A stretch of 64,000 nucleotides of DNA from Ensifer adhaerens (lineage in GTDB: Bacteria; Pseudomonadota; Alphaproteobacteria; Rhizobiales; Rhizobiaceae), in contig NZ_LAZS01000005.1 of assembly GCF_002007205.1 (NCBI RefSeq), forward strand, positions 1,240,001-1,304,000, given 5' to 3'. The notes beneath the pieces are model-generated. The model was given only the letters and a program-made list of their open reading frames with translations. It made no database searches and was not told the DNA's origin. A program made the translations under genes and the position numbers. This document shows positions 3,946-31,558 of the stretch, piece after piece (position 1 is the stretch's first letter; each line of letters begins with the position of its first letter).

Positions 3946-4128
3946 GCCTTTTCTCCTTTTCCGGTTGAACCTCCGCGAAGCGTCGAGCATGGTCTTTCGA
4001 CTTGCCCACCGGCGGAACGATCCGGATTTCTCCCGGAACATCCCATGCTTCACGTGTGGAATGGGCAGCCCCTTAACGGCAACCGCCCGAGAAATCAAGC
4101 CGCAAACGCCGCTTTTTGCAGCAATCGG

Positions 4129-22673: not shown

Positions 22674-24203
22674 TCATTCCACCCGGTAGGGCAGCGTGCC
22701 TATGGACCAGCGTATGCCGCGCCTGTCGAGATCATCCGTCCAGGTCTTCTGCAGCCGCGCGACAACCTCGCCCAAGGTTTCGCGGGCATTCAACTCGACC
22801 TTGAGGCCTCGTTCTTTCGGCGCGACCTCGCTCAGATCGACGGCGTCACTGACGACAAGCGCGACGAAGACGCTTTCCCCCTCGCCCGAAGCCTCGAAAT
22901 CGAAGCCGTAATAGTCGTCCGGCAGCGTCAGCGGCACGTCGGGGGCAAGCGGCGTGATCGTCCGGGCGAATTCGTTCGGAAAAATCTGCGTCGCCTTTCC
23001 GCGGGCGCCGACATCGAAAAGCAGAAGGTCGCCGCCGCTTCGGCTGGTGACGGTCAGCTTGAAAACCTCACCGGCCTTCATCGTCGTCGGACGATCGATC
23101 GAGAGTTCGACGTCGCCGTTTTCGGTCTTGCCGACGATATCGCTGACGGCGTCGATGGCGTTGGCATCCTGGTAGGCCAGGTGCGCCGCGCTCTCGCTGC
23201 TTGCCGGTTGATAGATCCCCTGCCCGCCGCCGCCGGCAGCGGCGCCGTCCGGCGCAACGACGCTGTCGCCCAGCGTTTGCGCCTTGATCTCCAACTGCGG
23301 ATCGAGATTGCCGCACATGTCCTGCGACGCGCAGTAGGCGCTCGACTGCGCCTTCACGAACTCGAGCAATTCGGCGTTGCTCGTCAGCCCGTTGCCGTTC
23401 CCGTCGGCAGAACTATCCATCTGACCGGCAATGAAAGCGGATGTGAATACGCCATGGCGATCCGGCGCGGGAAGCCGCACGTCGTCCCAGACCACCTGAT
23501 AAGGGGCAGCCGCACTCCAGGCCGTCACACCGGCGTCCACCAGTTGCGGTTTGTCGATGACCGCGAGGTCGATCCTGATGCCACGAGTCAGCGCCTGTTC
23601 GACCGGCTTGGCACCCGGGCGCGGCAGGAAGCGTGCCCCTTCGATGCCCGCTGCGCTATCTTCGACACGTAAGTGCGAGACCGCACTGGAATAGCAGGCA
23701 TCGACTACCATGGTGACTGCCCGCCCGTTCAGGCGCCCGAGCATCCCGTCGACCTCGTCGTCGAGGATCGCCCCTTGCCAATCGGTCCCGCCCTCGGCGA
23801 TGTCGAACGGCGCCAGAGCTTCGTCGAGTCCGTCCGCCTCGTCGCCATCTGTATCTTTCACCTGCAGGCCGTGGCCGGAGAAATAGAGATAGACTCGATC
23901 GCCCGGCTTGGTCCCATCGACGAGCCAGGTGTTCATCGATGCAAGAATCTCCGCCCGCGTCGCCTGTTCATCCTGCAAAACGCGGATGGACGACGCATCG
24001 AAACCGAGCCGATCCGTCAGGAGCGCTTGCATTGCCCGAAGATCATTCCGCGGACCGTTCAGCACGAACCTTGCCGGCAGGTTCTCGTAATTGCCGACCC
24101 CGATGAGCAAGGCTCGGTCAGCCGCCAGGGCCGGAGCGGCAAGCGCCGTTACACAGACGAGCGCGCCCAGACGCGAAAACCACCTGTTGCCGCGCCCGCT
24201 CAT
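22674..24203 (-). CDS. Exported caspase family (peptidase C14-like) protein with C-terminal DUF4384-like domain
   Basis: A 509-aa predicted exported protease. Signal peptide at 1-28 (cleavage after APALA). The caspase-like domain (about 29-290) has strand ALLIGVGNY, catalytic His111 in LYFSGHG and Cys170 in VVDACYSS, with an acidic DTDGDEADGLDEAL stretch after the His. A 12-residue EF-hand-like loop beginning DGNGNG lies at about 267-278. Residues about 370-480 form a DUF4384-like beta domain. Its ATG overlaps the stop of the preceding caspase gene (ATGA), so it is translationally coupled. Last gene of the operon. The longer frame to 24716 overlaps the other caspase and is rejected. Substrate unknown. 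Confidence 0.88.
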   Translation of the reverse strand: MSGRGNRWFSRLGALVCVTALAAPALAADRALLIGVGNYENLPARFVLNGPRNDLRAMQALLTDRLGFDASSIRVLQDEQATRAEILASMNTWLVDGTKPGDRVYLYFSGHGLQVKDTDGDEADGLDEALAPFDIAEGGTDWQGAILDDEVDGMLGRLNGRAVTMVVDACYSSAVSHLRVEDSAAGIEGARFLPRPGAKPVEQALTRGIRIDLAVIDKPQLVDAGVTAWSAAAPYQVVWDDVRLPAPDRHGVFTSAFIAGQMDSSADGNGNGLTSNAELLEFVKAQSSAYCASQDMCGNLDPQLEIKAQTLGDSVVAPDGAAAGGGGQGIYQPASSESAAHLAYQDANAIDAVSDIVGKTENGDVELSIDRPTTMKAGEVFKLTVTSRSGGDLLLFDVGARGKATQIFPNEFARTITPLAPDVPLTLPDDYYGFDFEASGEGESVFVALVVSDAVDLSEVAPKERGLKVELNARETLGEVVARLQKTWTDDLDRRGIRWSIGTLPYRVE

Positions 24204-25750
24204 TGGCCTTGCCCCCTCGTATACAGCGGCTGGATCGCGATGGTGCTGTCGCTGCCTTCCAACCGGGTTTCCAGCAGCCGCAGCAGCGACGCTCCATCGA
24301 GGCTGGAATTGGAGAAGGCAGCGGCGATGGCATCGATCGGCGCGTCGGTCGAAATCACCACGAGGTGATCGGCGCCGAATGGTTTCACCACCTCCAGCCC
24401 CTGAAGGCTGAAGGTGTGGCTGCCGCGTCCGGCGATCTGCACGTCGAGCAGCTGCACCTCGCCGGTGTTCGCCAGATTGAAAACCAGCATGTTTGCGTAG
24501 CGGCCCTGATCGGCCTCGAATGTCAGCCGATCGCCGGCAAGGTAGATATCCTTGACAGGCTTCAGCGATACCGTTCCGGGGCTTTGCGCCGCCATCGCCT
24601 TCAGGAAATCGACGAGGATGAACTTGTCGACGACGCGCTGAACCATGTCCGGTGCAACGTGCTCGCCGGCAACATCGCCGTTCGGCGTATAGAACACACC
24701 GGACGCCGCCTCCCACCGGTAGGGCAGACCTTCACCACCGACATTGGCAAGACCAGGCATTTGACCGACGACGCTCAACGGCAACCTGCCCGTCCATCCG
24801 AGATGGCGCGGCGACTTCAGTGCAGACTTCCCGCTTGCCGTTTCCGCGCCGGCGACCTTGGCGCTGCGCGGCAGGGGCAGCACGATCTCCTTGTCGGACC
24901 GCGGCAGCTGCGGCGTGAAGTTCGGCACCTGCAAGGCTTCCGATTGCAGCTTGACGTTGGAAAACACGTAGTCTTCGAGTTCGACGCGCGAAATCCGGCC
25001 ATCGCCATCGCGATCGGCGGCGCCCTCAAGGGCACGGGCAAAACTCCAGCTAAGCGCGCCACGCGGCTCGCCGCCGATCACCACCTCCGGCGTCGGTTGG
25101 CTTTCGAGCGACGCGGCCAGGATCGTCACCTGCGACAGCTCCGCATCTCTCACCTTGGCGCCGGAAATCGCCTCCTTGGACGGTGGCGGCACCTTGGCGC
25201 GGACCATCGGCGCCAGTCGCGTCTTTCCGGAAATGGACCGGTTCATACCGCCGGAATAGCAACTGTCGGAGACGAACAGCACGTGAATGCCTTTAGCCTC
25301 GGCTTCGGCAAACCAGGCGCTGAGCTCGTTGTCGACAATGATTTCGCTTGCCGTCTCCTCCGCACGCGCCCGGTCGAAGCCCGGCAGCTCCAGGAATTCG
25401 TCAAGCCCGTCCTCCTCGCTGCCGGCGATCAGCTCCGGCATCTGCGCGCCATGGCCGGCATAGGTGAAGAGGATCGTGTCGCCGCGCTCGGCGGCCGCCA
25501 CAAGTTCCACCCAAGCCTCACGGATCGCATCCTTGGTCGCCTGTTCATTGATGAACTGGCGGATCGGGCCGACGTCGGCTGCCTTCAGCGCCTGCGTGAC
25601 GTCGAGCGCGTCGCGAACAGCTCCATCGAGGCTTACTTCGTGCGGATAGGAATCGATCCCGACGACCAGCGCCGAGGTCGCGGCGATGGCCGGAGCCACG
25701 GGCAAGGCGAACAGAGTTGCCACAAAGACGATCTCGCGCAGCACCGTCAT
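24200..25750 (-). CDS. Exported caspase family (peptidase C14-like) protein
   Basis: A 516-aa paralogue-like partner of the next gene. Signal peptide 1-23 (APAIA cleavage), then SALVVGID, catalytic His100 in TYAGHGAQ and Cys164 in SDSCYSGG. A perfect 12-residue EF-hand loop starting DRDGDG lies at about 247-258, so calcium binding is possible. The C-terminal 200 residues are beta-rich and DUF4384-like (VSLKPVKDIYLAGDRLTFEA, then LVFNLANTGEVQLLDV). The two caspases are clearly different in sequence, so they are not a recent duplication. Both ends overlap neighbours by 4 bases (OmpA-domain gene before, second caspase after). Bacterial caspase homologues act in stress and defence; the role here is unknown. 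Confidence 0.88.
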   Translation of the reverse strand: MTVLREIVFVATLFALPVAPAIAATSALVVGIDSYPHEVSLDGAVRDALDVTQALKAADVGPIRQFINEQATKDAIREAWVELVAAAERGDTILFTYAGHGAQMPELIAGSEEDGLDEFLELPGFDRARAEETASEIIVDNELSAWFAEAEAKGIHVLFVSDSCYSGGMNRSISGKTRLAPMVRAKVPPPSKEAISGAKVRDAELSQVTILAASLESQPTPEVVIGGEPRGALSWSFARALEGAADRDGDGRISRVELEDYVFSNVKLQSEALQVPNFTPQLPRSDKEIVLPLPRSAKVAGAETASGKSALKSPRHLGWTGRLPLSVVGQMPGLANVGGEGLPYRWEAASGVFYTPNGDVAGEHVAPDMVQRVVDKFILVDFLKAMAAQSPGTVSLKPVKDIYLAGDRLTFEADQGRYANMLVFNLANTGEVQLLDVQIAGRGSHTFSLQGLEVVKPFGADHLVVISTDAPIDAIAAAFSNSSLDGASLLRLLETRLEGSDSTIAIQPLYTRGQGQ

Positions 25751-26649
25751 TTTCCCACGTCCACTTCCACCCGGCGATCGAGCTGGTGCAGCATCTCCTC
25801 GCTATAGGCGCTCGGATCGTCCGGCTTGAACGGCTCGTCCTCGCCCTTGCCGACCACGGTCCAGGTGCCGGGATAGCCGGCGTCGACGAGATACTGAGCC
25901 AGCGCTTTTGCACGGGCGACGGAGAGCGCCATGTTCGCCTCAGCGGTTCCAACCGGATCGGTGTGGCCAATCAGGGTGATCGCGGCCGGCTTCGCCGACT
26001 TCAGGCACTCGAACAGGTCCTTGGCCGACTCGAGACCTTCGGGCGTAAACTCGGCCGTGCCGAAGACGTAGCGCACCGGCGTCGCCTTCTTGCGGATCGA
26101 AACACCGCGATAGGAGAACTTGCAGGCGCCGCGCGCGGCGAGCTTGACCGGCCTGGTTGCCGCGAGCCGCATTTCCGAAGCCAGGCGGTCCAGCCGCTCG
26201 ATATAGGCCTTGTCCGGCGCCATCCAATCCGGCGTCAGCTCCTCGTTTGCCGCATCTTCCAGCGCTTGCTGATAGGAGGTGGCAGCCGCGTCGTAATCCT
26301 TGCGCTCGCGCTTGATGTCGCCGAGCGCATCGAGGATCTGCCAGGGGCCACCGGCGTCGCGGCTTGCCGCCGTCAGTTCCGCTTCGAAGGTCTCAAGCTT
26401 GGCGCCCTGCCCCACGGCCGCTGCGACACGATTGAAGGTCGCGAGTGCTGCGACACGCCGGGTCAACGCGATCTCGGTGGCCGAGCAGCCCTTCATGTTT
26501 GCGGGATCTGCCGCCACTTTGATGCCGGCTTCGTCGGCGCGGTTCAGCGCCTCGGAAGCCAGGCGAAGGCCATCGCAGGCCTTGGCCGGCGCGATGAAGA
26601 CCGCCAGAACCGCCGAAGCGAGGAGAAATGCTCGTAGCTGAACCATCAC
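25747..26649 (-). CDS. Exported protein with C-terminal OmpA-like domain
   Basis: A 300-aa predicted periplasmic protein. Signal peptide at 1-24 (cleavage APAKA before Cys25; the residues before Cys do not make a good lipobox, though a lipoprotein cannot be excluded). The middle has helix-rich TPR-like sequence (DALGDIKRERKDYDAAATSYQQAL). The C-terminus (about 185-300) is OmpA-like: YVFGTAEFTPEGLESA, ITLIGHTDPVGTAEANMALSVARA and the final LDRRVEVDVG, which binds peptidoglycan in characterised proteins. It lies 7 bases after the cytochrome gene and overlaps the caspase gene by 4. It may anchor the system to the cell wall. Confidence 0.85.
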   Translation of the reverse strand: MMVQLRAFLLASAVLAVFIAPAKACDGLRLASEALNRADEAGIKVAADPANMKGCSATEIALTRRVAALATFNRVAAAVGQGAKLETFEAELTAASRDAGGPWQILDALGDIKRERKDYDAAATSYQQALEDAANEELTPDWMAPDKAYIERLDRLASEMRLAATRPVKLAARGACKFSYRGVSIRKKATPVRYVFGTAEFTPEGLESAKDLFECLKSAKPAAITLIGHTDPVGTAEANMALSVARAKALAQYLVDAGYPGTWTVVGKGEDEPFKPDDPSAYSEEMLHQLDRRVEVDVGK

Positions 26650-26656
26650 TCGACCA

Positions 26657-29600
26657 TCAATCCTTGATCTCGAACGTCACCATCTGGACACTGCTGGCAC
26701 CGGCATCGCCTTGCGCCCGCTTGGCCAGGTTGATCGCCAGTCCCCGTGTCGGCGGCAACCGCGACGTCGCCACATATTCGCGTGCCTTCTCCACCGTCAG
26801 CTTCTGGTCGCCGAGCCCGCCGGTCCGACAGAAGGCCAGCATGGTTTCGGCGGGCGCAGGTGTGTCGAAGGTGAGCGTGCCCGTGCCCGGCTGCGGGATC
26901 AGGCGCCGCTCGCCCGGCTTAAGCGTGGTGTTGCCGATCATCACATCCGGGATGACCTCGACGTTGCCGTTCTCCTCGACATAGAGGATCTGCAACTCGC
27001 AGGCCTGATTGGCCCTGAGTTCAAAGGATAGCTCGTCGCCGACCTTGGCCGTCGTCGATTTCACCTTCAGCGCCAGTTCGAGCTTGGTGCCGGAATCTTT
27101 ATCCTGCTTGCGATAATCGGGAACCGCGGCCGCGATCGACTGCGGCTTTGCGTCGTCCGGCTCGGCACCGGCCACGATGAGCGCCGCCGTATCGAGCGGG
27201 CGGCGTTGGCTGAGCGGCTCCAGCAGTAACGCGTATTGCTGTTCGAGCTCGTTGCGCGGAATGGTTCCCCCCGCTTCCAGCGTCGTTACCCAATCGAGCC
27301 CGAGGCGCAGCACATCGCTATTCGTCACCCGCTTGATCGCTTCCGAGAATTGCTTCGGCGTCATGTCGAACTCGGCCGCCAGGGCATCGAAGTCGAGCTC
27401 GTCTTCGTATTTGTCGGCAAAGTAGGTGATGATCTCCGCTTCGCCCGGCGCATGCTTGCTCTGGAGGCCACCATCGGGTGTCGGTTCGGTGACGCCGAGC
27501 GTCTTCAGCGCGTTGACGAAGCGCTCGCGATCCTTGCGGTAGGTTTCGTCCAGTTCCTCCTGCTTCACATACATGGCGAGCAGCACGTCCTGCTGGTCCT
27601 TGCTGAATAGCGTCGATGTCTCGATCTGCTCGCGCAACTGATCGCGCTTCGAAAGGATGCCGTCGGCATGGCAGTCGACGCAGGACCGCGCATTGATGAT
27701 CTCGACACCCTTGCCGATCGGCCGCTTGCGGAACGACACGATCGTCGTCGGCCCAACATCGAGCTGCTTGCCGGCTGATGTCGAGAGATAATAGCCCTGC
27801 AGGCCGTTCGGCAGCGAGAAGATCATCTCGCCGCCGTCGTGCTCGAAAGGCACGAGGCCCGCATCGAGCGGCGCCAGCTCCGTTGGCCCGTGTGGGAATC
27901 GCTTCAGCACCTGCTTGCCGACGTCGCCACCGAAATCATAGGACTTCCAGTAGTAGCCACCGAACGGCATGTCGTGCCGCTCGAGCATGCGGTTGTGGTC
28001 GGAAACACCGGAGGAGCCGTCGGCGAAACCGGCCCGCAGCACGTTGCGCCGGCGGATGTTTTCGGCAGCGTCGATGTTGAAGCGCTTTTCCAGTTCGCTG
28101 ATCTCGGTCGGCAGCCGCATCAGACGGTTGTAGATCTCCGGCCGCGCGCCGTTGCTCATGAACCAATCGACGCGCATGATCGGCAGCGTTGTCGCCATTT
28201 CCCTGGAAAGGGCGGAAAGCGACGCGTCGCTCTCGGGATCAACGCCATAGAAATAACGCTTGATGAGGAAATCGTAGTCTGCCTCGTCCCACTGCAGTTC
28301 GCGCAGATCGACACGCACCAGCAACCCTTTGGTGCCGTCGACCTCCGCCGGCAGCACCAGCTTTGGCCCGTAGGACAGAGAATTCAAAAGCTTCTTGAAG
28401 CCGCCGGCGAGAACATCCATGCGCTTCATGAAGGTCTGGTCGTCCTCGCAGCCCATCATGCCGTTGTACTGGTCGCGATAGGAGAAGTAGCGCATGAAGG
28501 GACGGTCGAGTGCATTGACGGTCGCAATGTCCTTGAGCGCCGCCTCGACGAACTGGTCATAGGTCAGTATCGGGCGCGAGCGGTCCGGCTTGGCGGCAGC
28601 GGTTTGCGGCAGGCTCCTTTCGTTGAGCGAATTGATCCAGTCCTCCAGCACCTTGATTTCTTCGGCAGACGGGCGCTTGCCGAGCGGCATGCGGCCGCTG
28701 ACGACGGTCGTGTAGAGGCGCGACTTGGCGGCATCCCCGGGCACGACAAAATTGGCGTCGGCTGCGATCGAAGCGAGGTCGCCGGCCGGATAGCTTCCTT
28801 GCGAGCTTTCGCCCGGCCCGTGACAGTTGCGGCAGTATCTGCCGATGAAGGCATCGGCCTGCTGCGCCAGCACCGCATTGCCGCCGCCCAGCGCTTCAGT
28901 CGCCGTATTCTCCTTGCAGACGGCCGTGACCGACTGCGCCACCGGCGCCGGGGCCTTCACTTCACGATCGGCAAGGAAGGCATAAATGGCGCGGCGATCG
29001 TCGTCTGAGAGAACACTCAGCCCCTTGGCGAGCCGCCGCATGACGGGATCGCTGATCGGCGCGCCCGAGAGCTTCTTGCCTTCGTCGATCAGGCCCTTGG
29101 TAAAGACCTCGGGCGAAACAAGACCCGCCATCTTCGCCTTGCTGATGTCGGGCGCTACCGCACCGGTTAGGTCTTTTTCGCCCTGGTATGCCCGCTCCAG
29201 GTCCAGCCCGTAGGTGGTCGTGCGTGGCGTATGGCAATCGCCGCAGCCGCCGATATTCTCGACCAGATAGCGACCGCGCTCGGCCTGCGTTTCCTCCCGC
29301 GGCTGATAGGACGGCACCGTGAAGTGGCTGCGCTTCCAGAGCGTGATCGTCGTCTGCCGGCTGAAGGGGAACGCGATCTCATGCTCCTTCGATGCCGCAT
29401 CCGTCTGCGGCAGCGTCTCGATATAGGCCTTGATGTCGAGCGCATCCTCCGGCTTCATCCCGCCATAGGAGGTGTAGGGCATGACCGGGTAGAGGTTGTT
29501 GCCCTCCCGATCGAGGCCGACCAGAACCGCATTCAGAAACTGCGCATTGGTCCAGCCGCCGATGCCATTGGCGTGCGGCGAAATGTTCGGCGCATAGAAG

Positions 29601-29881
29601 GTGCCGATCGCCGTGTTCATCTGCATGCCGCCGGACAGCAGTTCCGTATTGTCACCGGATCCGTGACAGGCGCCGCAGCCTGCGGCGTTGAACATGTATT
29701 TGCCGTTGTCGACATTGGCCTTGTAGGTGGAGAAGGCATCCTCAGAGAAGGCATCGCGCGCCGAGGCACTAGCGGGACAGAGCAAGACTGTGACTAGCGC
29801 CGCGAACGAAACGGCCCAATATCCGCGGCCAAGACCGGACAATGGCGAGACGCCTTCTCGCTTTCTCTGCAGACCGCACAT
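26657..29881 (-). CDS. Large exported tetra-haem c protein with C-terminal DUF4384-like domain
   Basis: A 1,074-aa protein with a signal peptide (about 1-41) and four CxxCH haem-binding sites: Cys69-His73, Cys213-His217, Cys350-His354 and Cys734-His738. Residues about 50-305 resemble the cytochrome subunits of membrane-bound alcohol/gluconate dehydrogenases (NISPHANGIGGW, YPVMPYTSYGGM). About 435-800 is a separate region with WFMSNGARPEIYNRLM, ERHDMPFGGYYWKSYDF and IFSLPNGLQGYYLS before the fourth haem; I do not know its function. About 930-1040 is DUF4384-like (LELALKVKSTTAKVGDELSF, then LQILYVEENGNVEVIP). Second gene of the operon, after the membrane flavocytochrome. Electron transfer in the periplasm is likely; donor and acceptor unknown. 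Confidence 0.85.
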   Translation of the reverse strand: MCGLQRKREGVSPLSGLGRGYWAVSFAALVTVLLCPASASARDAFSEDAFSTYKANVDNGKYMFNAAGCGACHGSGDNTELLSGGMQMNTAIGTFYAPNISPHANGIGGWTNAQFLNAVLVGLDREGNNLYPVMPYTSYGGMKPEDALDIKAYIETLPQTDAASKEHEIAFPFSRQTTITLWKRSHFTVPSYQPREETQAERGRYLVENIGGCGDCHTPRTTTYGLDLERAYQGEKDLTGAVAPDISKAKMAGLVSPEVFTKGLIDEGKKLSGAPISDPVMRRLAKGLSVLSDDDRRAIYAFLADREVKAPAPVAQSVTAVCKENTATEALGGGNAVLAQQADAFIGRYCRNCHGPGESSQGSYPAGDLASIAADANFVVPGDAAKSRLYTTVVSGRMPLGKRPSAEEIKVLEDWINSLNERSLPQTAAAKPDRSRPILTYDQFVEAALKDIATVNALDRPFMRYFSYRDQYNGMMGCEDDQTFMKRMDVLAGGFKKLLNSLSYGPKLVLPAEVDGTKGLLVRVDLRELQWDEADYDFLIKRYFYGVDPESDASLSALSREMATTLPIMRVDWFMSNGARPEIYNRLMRLPTEISELEKRFNIDAAENIRRRNVLRAGFADGSSGVSDHNRMLERHDMPFGGYYWKSYDFGGDVGKQVLKRFPHGPTELAPLDAGLVPFEHDGGEMIFSLPNGLQGYYLSTSAGKQLDVGPTTIVSFRKRPIGKGVEIINARSCVDCHADGILSKRDQLREQIETSTLFSKDQQDVLLAMYVKQEELDETYRKDRERFVNALKTLGVTEPTPDGGLQSKHAPGEAEIITYFADKYEDELDFDALAAEFDMTPKQFSEAIKRVTNSDVLRLGLDWVTTLEAGGTIPRNELEQQYALLLEPLSQRRPLDTAALIVAGAEPDDAKPQSIAAAVPDYRKQDKDSGTKLELALKVKSTTAKVGDELSFELRANQACELQILYVEENGNVEVIPDVMIGNTTLKPGERRLIPQPGTGTLTFDTPAPAETMLAFCRTGGLGDQKLTVEKAREYVATSRLPPTRGLAINLAKRAQGDAGASSVQMVTFEIKD

Positions 29882-29928
29882 GAAACCTACTCCCTAAAAC
29901 AATAGAATCGTTACTGAAATCTGCTGCC

Positions 29929-31188
29929 TTATCGAAACTGAAATCGCTCGAACTCGACCCGTTTCGGTCGCTTGCCAAGATCTTTCAAGCCCTTGACGAT
30001 CGCTTCCCTGAGGGGTGGCGGGCCGCAAAACCAGAGATCGGCGTCGGCCGGATCGATCGCGCTGCGGCTCACCAGATTGGCCGCATCCAGTCGTCCGTCC
30101 ACGGAACTGTCGTGCAGGACAAAAGTGAAGTTGCCGAGCCTTCCGGCCTGCCCCTCGAAGGTCTCCAGGCCGATCGCCTCGCGCCGGTCGCGCACGCAAT
30201 AGACCATGTGGATGTCCTGCCCCTCGTCGCCCTTCAGATGCCGCGCCATCGCCAGGAACGGCGTGACGCCGATGCCGCCGGCAAGCCAGATCTGCTTCTT
30301 GCCGCCGCGGCGATGGTTGAAGCGGCCATAACCGCCCTCAAGCTTCAACCGGTCACCGACCGCGATATTGTCCCGAAGCGCCTGGGTGTAATCGCCAAGC
30401 GGCTTGATCGCGAAGCGCACGACCCCGTCGGGCTCGATACCCGCGATCGTGAACGGGTGCGGCTCGCGCAGGCCCGGCTTCAGCACGCGCAGAAAACCGA
30501 ACTGCCCCGGCCTGGCACGCAAGGCACGCCGCAACGGCCGCGCCGCAATCACCGTCGCCCCATCCTCCCGCGCCACATCGAAGACCTCATAGCTGCGCGT
30601 GCGCAACCAGGGCAGAAGCTGTGTATAGGCGTAGCTCAGGATGCCAAGGGCCGCGAAGGCGTTGAGGTAGACTGCCAGCAGCGCGGTGCCGTCATAGGGG
30701 CGCTTGATGAACATCTGATGGAAGGCGACCATCATGAAGAGCAGACCGATGAAGCGGTGCGTGTAGCGCCAAAGATGGTAGGGAATCTCGATCTTCGTGC
30801 GCGGGATGACCTTGACGATGCTGAGAACGAGCAAAGCGACGAAAGCGTAGAAGGCGTATTTTCCGGCGGACGCAGCGAGTTCGTTCAGACCGCTCGTCAG
30901 CGCCAGGCCCTTGAAATCGGGCTTCAGGAAATAATGGATGAGGATGAGGACCAGAACCGAGATGCCGATCCTGCGATGAAAATGATAGACGCGATCAAGC
31001 CCGCCGAACAGGCCTTCGACGAAGGGCGGACGAGCGGCCATGAACTGAGCAATCGCCATGCCGACGAAGGCGGCCGACGAGGCCATCAGCGAGAACGTCG
31101 TCAATGCATTGGTGTGACTGACCGCCGGCACGGCCAGCAGCGCCGCAAATGCCATCAACGACCAGACCAGAAACGCGCCCACTTGCAC
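29929..31188 (-). CDS. Ferric reductase-like transmembrane flavocytochrome
   Basis: A 419-aa membrane protein of the ferric reductase/NADPH oxidase-like superfamily. Six predicted membrane helices occupy about 1-190; paired histidines in DRVYHFHRRIG, LILIHYFL, HLWRYTHRFIG and MVAFHQMF are candidate b-haem ligands. The C-terminal half binds FAD (EPHPFTIAGIEPDG) and NAD(P)H (WLAGGIGVTPF; FCGPPPLREAI). It can therefore move electrons from cytosolic NAD(P)H across the membrane. No ATG is available; GTG at 31188 with GAGGGG 6 bases ahead is chosen. It is the first gene of the caspase/cytochrome operon and is divergent from a GntR regulator. Confidence 0.86.
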   Translation of the reverse strand: MQVGAFLVWSLMAFAALLAVPAVSHTNALTTFSLMASSAAFVGMAIAQFMAARPPFVEGLFGGLDRVYHFHRRIGISVLVLILIHYFLKPDFKGLALTSGLNELAASAGKYAFYAFVALLVLSIVKVIPRTKIEIPYHLWRYTHRFIGLLFMMVAFHQMFIKRPYDGTALLAVYLNAFAALGILSYAYTQLLPWLRTRSYEVFDVAREDGATVIAARPLRRALRARPGQFGFLRVLKPGLREPHPFTIAGIEPDGVVRFAIKPLGDYTQALRDNIAVGDRLKLEGGYGRFNHRRGGKKQIWLAGGIGVTPFLAMARHLKGDEGQDIHMVYCVRDRREAIGLETFEGQAGRLGNFTFVLHDSSVDGRLDAANLVSRSAIDPADADLWFCGPPPLREAIVKGLKDLGKRPKRVEFERFQFR

Positions 31189-31558
31189 CTTGCGCCCCTC
31201 AACGCCGATGGCTGACGGTTGTTGCCCTTCACCTTCTGCCCGTTGCCTTCGATCTCAGCCGACCAAGGAAACATGCAACCAAGCTCTGTGCCACAACGGC
31301 CCTCGCGCCTCTTTCACGCGCGGCCCTTTTGGGAGAGTGGCAAGCACCTCCCTGTTCGTCAACACGATTCCTATCGGAACGGCCGGTGAGGTTCGTTTAT
31401 TCATGCCTTTGAAATCCGTATTTTTTAAGCATACGCTTATTTTTCCGTCCGCGCCTGCGAGCATCCCCTCATGACCTGCTCTGGTGCGGGGCGCCGCGCG
31501 CTTGCCTCACCGCCGAAAATTGTGCAAGTTACTGATATATCAGAACCAAAGGAACGAT
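31189..31558. other. Divergent control region of the caspase/cytochrome operon and gntR gene
   Basis: 370 bases with no gene. It contains AT-rich stretches near 31425-31445, a natural place for promoters, and the palindrome listed separately near the gntR start. I cannot name a confident -35/-10 pair for either direction. Confidence 0.4.
31532..31543. promoter_or_regulatory. 12-bp perfect palindrome ahead of the GntR regulator
   Basis: CTGATATATCAG lies 15 bases before the regulator's ATG. GntR-family regulators of the FadR type often bind short palindromes in their own promoter. That this is the operator is inference. Confidence 0.4.

Follow-up and report, generated by a model that had tools for sequence, protein, structure and literature searches.

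The subject of this analysis is a five-gene operon of Ensifer adhaerens, contained in a stretch of 64,000 nucleotides (contig NZ_LAZS01000005.1, positions 1,240,001 to 1,304,000) that we call the window and to whose first base our coordinates refer. Five open reading frames, all on the minus strand between 22674 and 31188 and each open over its entire interval, follow one another with gaps of 47, 7, -4 and -4 bases from gene 1 to gene 5, a layout that the initial annotation had proposed and that the reading-frame coordinates reproduce. They encode a NOX-family membrane flavocytochrome, a four-haem cytochrome, an OmpA-type protein and two caspases, the last four predicted to be exported (Table 1). 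The arrangement is more than a product of chance, because the ratio of non-synonymous to synonymous substitutions (dN/dS) is 0.07-0.27 per gene against eight relatives (Nei-Gojobori method, with many dS values near saturation), the gene order is conserved and there is no excess of terminator-like sites in the region (four, where shuffled sequence gives a mean of 6.9). All five genes are under purifying selection. A promoter scan returned one consensus match where 1.3 are expected by chance, and no RNA family reached its gathering threshold within the operon.

By its sequence, gene 1 is a NOX-family enzyme, which sharpens the earlier description of a membrane flavocytochrome with FAD and NAD motifs. 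Its product carries the Pfam domains Ferric_reduct, FAD_binding_8 and NAD_binding_1, each above cut-off, and its closest solved relative is the NOX of Streptococcus pneumoniae (8qt6, E = 1.4e-40 over residues 32-418; the best structure matches are the pneumococcal entries 8qt6, 8qq7 and 8qta, with E about 1e-40). The filters for bacterial NOX proteins, as laid out in the available part of PMC5676040, are an FAD motif H[PSA]F[TS][LIMV], two His-X12/14-His pairs separated by 20 residues or more (X12/14 being taken here as 12 to 14) and three to seven membrane helices. Gene 1 has HPFTI at residue 244, with GIGVTP at 305 likewise agreeing with the published filter, the histidine pairs 71/85 (X13) and 144/157 (X12), and six helices as first annotated, five as hydropathy segments and the sixth, which holds His144 and His157, from the alignment with the solved NOX. 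Its C-terminal ERFQF stands in register with EGFKF of the pneumococcal enzyme, whose F397 controls hydride transfer according to the available text of PMC11031084. The plain label 'ferric reductase', suggested by Ferric_reduct, was set aside in favour of the NOX filters, the acceptor being something that sequence cannot determine. With a NOX-family enzyme as the carrier, superoxide becomes another possible output alongside the haem protein.

Gene 2 carries Cytochrom_C, PSCyt1 and DUF4384, each above the Pfam cut-off, and divides into a dihaem part (residues 57-306), a third haem part, a large haem domain (about 430-905) and an immunoglobulin (Ig)-like DUF4384 domain (about 930-1074). The four CxxCH sites of the initial annotation were all found. 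The dihaem part has the dihaem fold and resembles the cytochrome subunit of fructose dehydrogenase, while an invariant Met398 is a candidate second ligand of haem 3 and the invariant His636 and His681 are candidate second ligands of haem 4. The large haem domain has no name in Pfam, and a confident model of it found no clear match among solved structures, a cytochrome lobe being weakly matched; it is a widespread haem module. The same domain also occurs fused to FGE-sulfatase-type, WD40 or TPR domains (P0114, P0201, P0204, P0169, P0232).

Gene 3 combines an OmpA domain, as had been supposed (Pfam, E = 1e-12; TPR appears solely below the cut-off), with TDPVGTAEANMALSVARA at residue 230, an instance of TDxxG...LSxxRA, which is the motif of OmpA C-terminal peptidoglycan binders. 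The profiles of both caspases match the yeast metacaspase Mca1 (4f6o, E = 3e-11 for caspase 1), and caspase 2 contains Peptidase_C14 (E = 2e-20) and DUF4384. Both are predicted to be C14 peptidases, since each has a p20 domain with the His/Cys dyad already remarked upon in the initial annotation. They fall into two families, C4 (caspase 1) and C5 (caspase 2), that split in a tree at a support of 100/100. Of 48 C4 rows, 47 retain the dyad. Among the C5 rows, near-duplicates included, 29 of 41 retain it (two of the other 12 are pieces of the Ensifer sesbaniae locus L052); it is altered in 10 of 39 whole rows, and among 120 nearest C5 relatives, the window's own included, it persists in 114 and is altered in six. 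The C5 tree demands at least four separate changes of the dyad, which we read as probable losses. Given a constant dyad in one family and repeated changes in the other, C4 looks like a constant protease, whereas C5 may work without catalysis in some lineages.

The N-termini of genes 2-5 are signal-peptide-like by eye and by hydropathy, in agreement with the four signal peptides first annotated, and in the caspases they directly precede p20; no lipobox was found in the N-termini of the operon proteins. At the other end, hhalign relates the C-termini of genes 2 and 5 (probability 97.4), 4 and 5 (95.4) and 4 and 2 (90.9). Pfam recognises DUF4384 in the cytochrome (28.3 bits) and in caspase 2 (38.3 bits, cut-off 27) and has no match in caspase 1, whose C-terminus is related via hhalign only. 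By these comparisons a C-terminal domain of DUF4384 type is common to the haem protein and the two caspases. PADLOC returned only its generic caspase profile, for both caspases, and weak MotB, TPR and Csa3 matches, on which account filing the operon as a defence system was rejected. Four further caspase-domain genes in the same genome (G000; C4:513122-513796, C18:591354-592031, C18:1782298-1782957 and C19:145114-145800, where C4, C18 and C19 are contig labels and C4 is distinct from the caspase family) match the Pfam model better than genes 4 and 5 and lie away from the operon.

Upstream of gene 1, nine aligned stretches, the window among them, keep two blocks in near relatives, TTTCAA.GGC.TGAATAAA-like and TTGACGAA, and this footprint is a possible promoter or operator. 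Further upstream, ahead of the likely start of a divergent gene that reads by eye as a GntR-family regulator, lies the palindrome CTGATATATCAG (31532-31543), also present upstream in five of eight relatives; it is probably that regulator's own site. The genes flanking the operon read by eye as metabolic, and elsewhere in the window an rpsB small RNA family match (RF01815, 43.9 bits) occupies 3946-4058.

Table 1. Genes of the operon, their putative functional sites and the upstream footprint (window coordinates)
Feature	Position	Strand	Basis
Gene 1, NOX-family membrane flavocytochrome, 419 amino acids, GTG start	29929..31188	-	Pfam, solved relative, motifs
Gene 1, His71, candidate haem ligand (His71-X13-His85)	30976..30978; His85 30934-30936	-	motif; pneumococcal NOX alignment
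Gene 1, His144-X12-His157, second candidate haem-ligand pair	30718..30759	-	motif; pneumococcal NOX alignment
Gene 1, HPFTI, NOX FAD-binding motif, residue 244	30445..30459	-	motif from PMC5676040 (available part)
Gene 2, predicted exported four-haem c-type cytochrome, 1074 amino acids	26657..29881	-	Pfam, motifs, structure comparison
Gene 2, CGACH, haem 1, residue 69	29663..29677	-	Cys and His in 60/60 full-length rows
Gene 2, CGDCH, haem 2, residue 213	29231..29245	-	Cys and His in 60/60 full-length rows
Gene 2, CRNCH, haem 3, residue 350	28820..28834	-	invariant in 74/74 rows
Gene 2, CVDCH, haem 4, residue 734	27668..27682	-	invariant in 74/74 rows
Gene 2, DUF4384 domain	26828..27046	-	
Gene 3, predicted exported TPR-like and OmpA C-terminal protein (peptidoglycan-binding type), 300 amino acids	25747..26649	-	Pfam, motif
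Gene 4, predicted exported caspase 1 (C4 family), 516 amino acids, DUF4384-like C-terminus	24200..25750	-	Peptidase_C14, hhalign
Gene 4, His100, catalytic His candidate, with Cys164	25451..25453; Cys164 25259-25261	-	dyad in 47/48 rows
Gene 5, predicted exported caspase 2 (C5 family), 509 amino acids, with DUF4384	22674..24203	-	Pfam
Gene 5, His111, catalytic His candidate, with Cys170	23871..23873; Cys170 23694-23696	-	dyad intact here
Upstream footprint	31355..31414 (blocks about 31396-31414 and 31355-31362)	-	9 aligned upstream stretches including the window

Recurrence and modularity of the set

The initial annotation had staked its proposal on recurrent co-occurrence in other genomes, and this was found: the five-gene order recurs, and a four-gene version exists in another order of the class. 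Gene 2 has its nearest named relatives in Ensifer adhaerens and Ensifer sp., and it is present along its full length in 15 of 15 other genomes of the genus at 84-93% identity, accompanied by genes 1 and 3 and the start of gene 4, with gene 5 outside the stretches. Among 23 named loci with relatives of gene 2 (nine of which were taken as genomes already in the same-genus set), 20 show NOX-cytochrome-OmpA-caspase-caspase in the order of the window; they belong to Ensifer, Sinorhizobium sp., one Rhizobiales bacterium, Pararhizobium and Shinella, and the five-gene order is also found in a distant genome of the Rhizobiales. Two of the 20 carry a caspase gene that is not intact: in Ensifer sesbaniae (L052, 15679-16502) caspase 2 is broken and partly deleted, genes 1-4 matching at full length, and in Shinella sumterensis MEC087 (L048, 14231-15710) caspase 1 lies in two frames, which reflects a frameshift or a sequencing error. 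The remaining three loci, from metagenome genomes of Nitratireductor and Salaquimonas, keep NOX and cytochrome with a different OmpA protein upstream; two are flanked on each side by caspases of another type that bear signal sequences, and the third ends at a contig edge.

NOX lies directly upstream of the four-haem gene in 31 of 31 such loci (the 23 named ones, L090-L093, L120, L138, L141 and the window), a count that is biased since most were found through a search with the haem gene. A caspase gene is present in 29 of these stretches; L056 and L138 are cut by contig ends. A less biased count comes from 249 genomes drawn evenly from the Rhizobiales, which contain exactly five NOX genes of at least 47% identity, all beside a four-haem gene. 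At E <= 1e-30 the same genomes hold 27 NOX places, namely these five linked ones and 22 unlinked ones at 29-37% identity. Twenty of the unlinked were examined, mostly over 6-7 kb on each side (three less, at contig ends), and at E <= 1e-5 no homologue of genes 2-5, nor of the other caspase and OmpA types, turned up in any of these stretches. In a tree, 16 linked NOX fall on one side of a branch with a support of 100/100. The haem domain occurs in 31 of the 249 genomes, and in the wide stretches examined for 30 of them, window included, NOX stands beside it in five (the window and L090-L093), each with an OmpA-domain and a caspase gene. L141, from another order of the class, has NOX, cytochrome, OmpA and C4 followed by three other caspases (E = 2e-119, 1e-236, 4e-25 and 9e-36 against genes 1-4). 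The haem family looks rare outside the Rhizobiales, because a query with a two-haem relative (E 1e-15) matched one of 211 genomes in a scan of the class and one of 218 in a scan of the phylum, the same genome in both and the one that carries L141.

The set is modular, with OmpA and the two caspase families as its core triad. A second layout, without NOX, consists of a separate dihaem cytochrome, C4, C5, a two-haem protein and OmpA (L102, L104, L107, L108, L111), with a variant of two-haem protein, OmpA, C4 and C5 (L105, L106), and a dihaem gene also adjoins C4 or the triad in L125 and L132. Since the separate dihaem gene is a relative of the gene 2 N-terminus, the dihaem part, as judged by its sequence, is fused in the first layout and a gene of its own in the second. 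Haem proteins are found without caspases in the stretches of L094-L099, L100, L101, L109, L112, L114, L115, L117 and L118. Of what was claimed at first, the envelope set that pairs an electron carrier with exported caspases stands, while the notion of five obligate partners does not, in view of the triads, the haem genes and the NOX-less layout. A strict five-gene unit was thus discarded as too narrow, triads existing without haem genes and haem proteins without caspases.

The triads have neighbours of their own. In L128 a serpin and a kinase-domain gene follow (Pfam); by clustering only, the kinase cluster is represented by a gene in L129 and the serpin cluster by one in L134. The triad of L122 is accompanied by a CHASE2-cyclase and a Crp-type regulator, DUF4384 proteins are found in L122 and L124, and WD40 repeats in L121. 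In the caspase loci L122, L123, L124, L130 and L133 at least one neighbour clusters with the CHASE2-adenylate cyclase, the Crp-type regulator or a weakly DUF928-like protein, labels that come from Pfam for L122 and from clustering for the others. The CHASE2-cyclase and Crp-type neighbours suggest another sensory input.

A proposed mechanism and its rivals

It is tempting to propose that the operon encodes a NOX-powered, haem-wired periplasmic caspase apparatus tethered to the cell wall, a reading that we favour tentatively and place somewhat short of an even chance. Electrons from NAD(P)H in the cytoplasm would travel via FAD and the two b haems of the NOX to the outer face of the inner membrane and on to the four-haem protein, entering at its dihaem part and passing over haem 3 to the haem-4 domain; in the absence of a free acceptor, the electrons would go to O2 as superoxide. 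Docking would occur through the Ig-like DUF4384-type domain common to the haem protein and both caspases, and the OmpA-type protein would anchor the set to peptidoglycan. The trigger would be the redox or ligand state of the haem protein (or superoxide), controlling caspase 1 as the constant protease, with caspase 2 as a second protease or a regulator. The substrates would be envelope proteins, subject to limited cleavage, probably after basic residues, and the benefit would arise under envelope redox stress. Of all this, the sequence analysis shows the parts and their motifs, linkage, modularity, common domain and selection; the electron path, the docking, the wall tethering, the trigger, the substrates and the benefit are inferred. 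We lean towards this apparatus because of the NOX filters, the 31 of 31 linkage, the absence of partners at all 20 control loci, the shared C-terminus, the OmpA motif and purifying selection, and because the same haem families adjoin the same triad in the second layout. The available parts of PMC5676040 and PMC11031084 also relate that pneumococcal NOX reduces cytochrome c and that acceptors besides O2 have been proposed for bacterial NOX.

Several observations weigh against such an apparatus. The coupling of NOX, haem protein and caspases is optional. At the cut-offs applied, 30 of the 249 genomes contain C4 and 28 contain C5; one or both lie beside the haem domain in 10 of 31 genomes (11 with G174, which is split between contigs), so that most genomes with these caspases lack an adjoining haem domain. 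Conversely, 19 of the 30 genomes with a stretch (the split case uncounted) have the haem domain but neither C4 nor C5 there; in one genus (L094-L099) the four-haem protein mostly has a divergent OmpA gene and neither NOX nor these caspases in the stretch, and eight stretches (L121-L124, L126-L129) contain the OmpA-C4-C5 triad without a haem gene of these families. The gene 2 N-terminus, moreover, resembles the cytochrome subunits of dehydrogenases that feed the respiratory chain, and electron flow could therefore run another way. The DUF4384 domains, though shared, may have binding partners other than one another. Cleavage after basic residues, finally, is a property of orthocaspases (PMC6426788, available part) that we carry over to the operon caspases by analogy.

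A more elaborate version, which we regard as doubtful when all its parts are taken jointly, envisages a redox-switched envelope caspase machine driven by NOX, in which a constant C4 would be paired with a C5 that decays repeatedly into a pseudo-caspase regulator, docking to the haem protein would use the shared Ig domain, and the inputs onto a wall-tethered output would be interchangeable: NOX with haem, haem alone, serpin and kinase, or CHASE2-cyclase. The logic of C4 and C5 would then be comparable to that of animal caspase-8 and c-FLIP.

The main rival is that the operon repairs and clears oxidised envelope proteins without any gating of caspases. As in MsrPQ, NOX would be the donor and the haem protein a reductase or peroxidase, and the caspases would clear what is beyond repair. 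Here MsrQ-MsrP is a precedent for a NOX-type protein that feeds a periplasmic enzyme (PMC5676040, available part). The haem-4 domain has two invariant histidines besides CxxCH, as a catalytic haem site might, and haem module and caspases can occur apart; however, neither a molybdopterin nor a known peroxidase domain was found in the five proteins, and the shared C-terminal domain suggests more than parallel tasks, which leaves this explanation unlikely. Caspases are the classical death proteases, and regulated self-killing or attack, in which a superoxide burst from NOX would be joined by caspases that break the cell's own envelope or hit neighbours, would fit the PADLOC caspase profile that both match as well as the superoxide produced by the solved NOX relative (available part of PMC5676040). 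Yet PADLOC yields that generic profile and weak matches only, no toxin or immunity gene was recognised, the neighbours appear metabolic by eye, and all 16 genomes of the genus carry genes 1-4 (gene 5 being outside the stretches), which are under purifying selection, unlike patchy defence islands; we thus consider such a role improbable.

Another possibility is maturation, in which the caspases and OmpA would serve to process the haem protein, or some other respiratory enzyme, or to position it, making the operon a respiratory branch with its own proteases. The electron-transfer genes do stand first in the operon, and caspases are capable of limited cleavage, but the eight triads without a haem gene of these families in their stretches, one of them (L128) beside serpin and kinase-domain genes, and the haem proteins that exist without caspases make this account more improbable still. 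Least probable of all is co-transcription without a functional link. The components are apart in many genomes, as it would predict; however, NOX, cytochrome, OmpA and caspase are kept together in another order of the class (L141), none of the 20 control NOX loci has the partners, and two different layouts join the same families.

Comparison with known systems

To our knowledge, no known system joins NOX, a multihaem protein and exported caspases, and searches of the open-licence literature found no description of the three as a joint system, consistent with the initial impression that the operon matches nothing familiar. If the proposed apparatus is real, it would amount to redox control of caspases outside the cytoplasm, of a kind that we did not find described in that literature. 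The operon gives one group of NOX a constant and testable haem partner, where the role of bacterial NOX is otherwise open (the available text of PMC5676040 reports no identifiable phenotype for a pneumococcal NOX knockout). For the caspases it predicts a location in the envelope and offers a candidate input for their control, in a field where no function was given for 70 of 217 metacaspase operons (PMC3501461, available part), and it draws attention to a large haem domain that Pfam does not name.

SpNOX (8qt6) and the bacterial NOX family share with gene 1 the FAD, NADPH and both bis-His motifs, as far as the available part of Hajjar et al., 2017 (PMC5676040) goes, whereas the NOX of the window, known here from sequence, lies in an operon with a multihaem cytochrome, an OmpA protein and caspases. 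In MsrPQ, too, a periplasmic acceptor is fed by a haem protein in the membrane, one that is homologous to the NOX membrane part, but MsrQ relies on a separate flavin reductase and has no fused FAD/NAD half of its own (PMC5676040, available part), and Pfam recognised no MsrP-type molybdopterin domain in the five proteins. The dihaem fold of the gene 2 N-terminal part is common to the cytochrome subunits of membrane-bound fructose dehydrogenase (8jej/7w2j) and of alcohol dehydrogenase, yet gene 2 joins it to DUF4384 and to a large haem domain that is undescribed, and no large subunit of a flavo- or quinoprotein dehydrogenase was found among the five genes with Pfam.

On the caspase side, anti-phage systems of the caspase type have the Peptidase_C14 domain in common with the operon. 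They are cytosolic and equipped with sensor domains, whereas the operon caspases have signal-peptide-like N-termini and PADLOC recognised no sensor or effector partner. Cyanobacterial orthocaspases and pseudo-orthocaspases likewise unite a caspase p20 with DUF4384 and have lost the dyad in many members (PMC7475262, whose available text mentions neither 'NADPH oxidase' nor 'periplasm'). The metacaspase operons of Asplund-Samuelsson et al., 2012 (PMC3501461) invite comparison with L128, where a serpin gene follows the OmpA-caspase-caspase triad; in the available main text the words 'cytochrome', 'ferric' and 'oxidase' do not occur, nor were the NOX/haem wiring, the two-family triad or the dyad changes found there. 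The families are thus known singly, except for the middle haem domain, and their combination is new or, on a stricter view, a variant of the OmpA-metacaspase operons.

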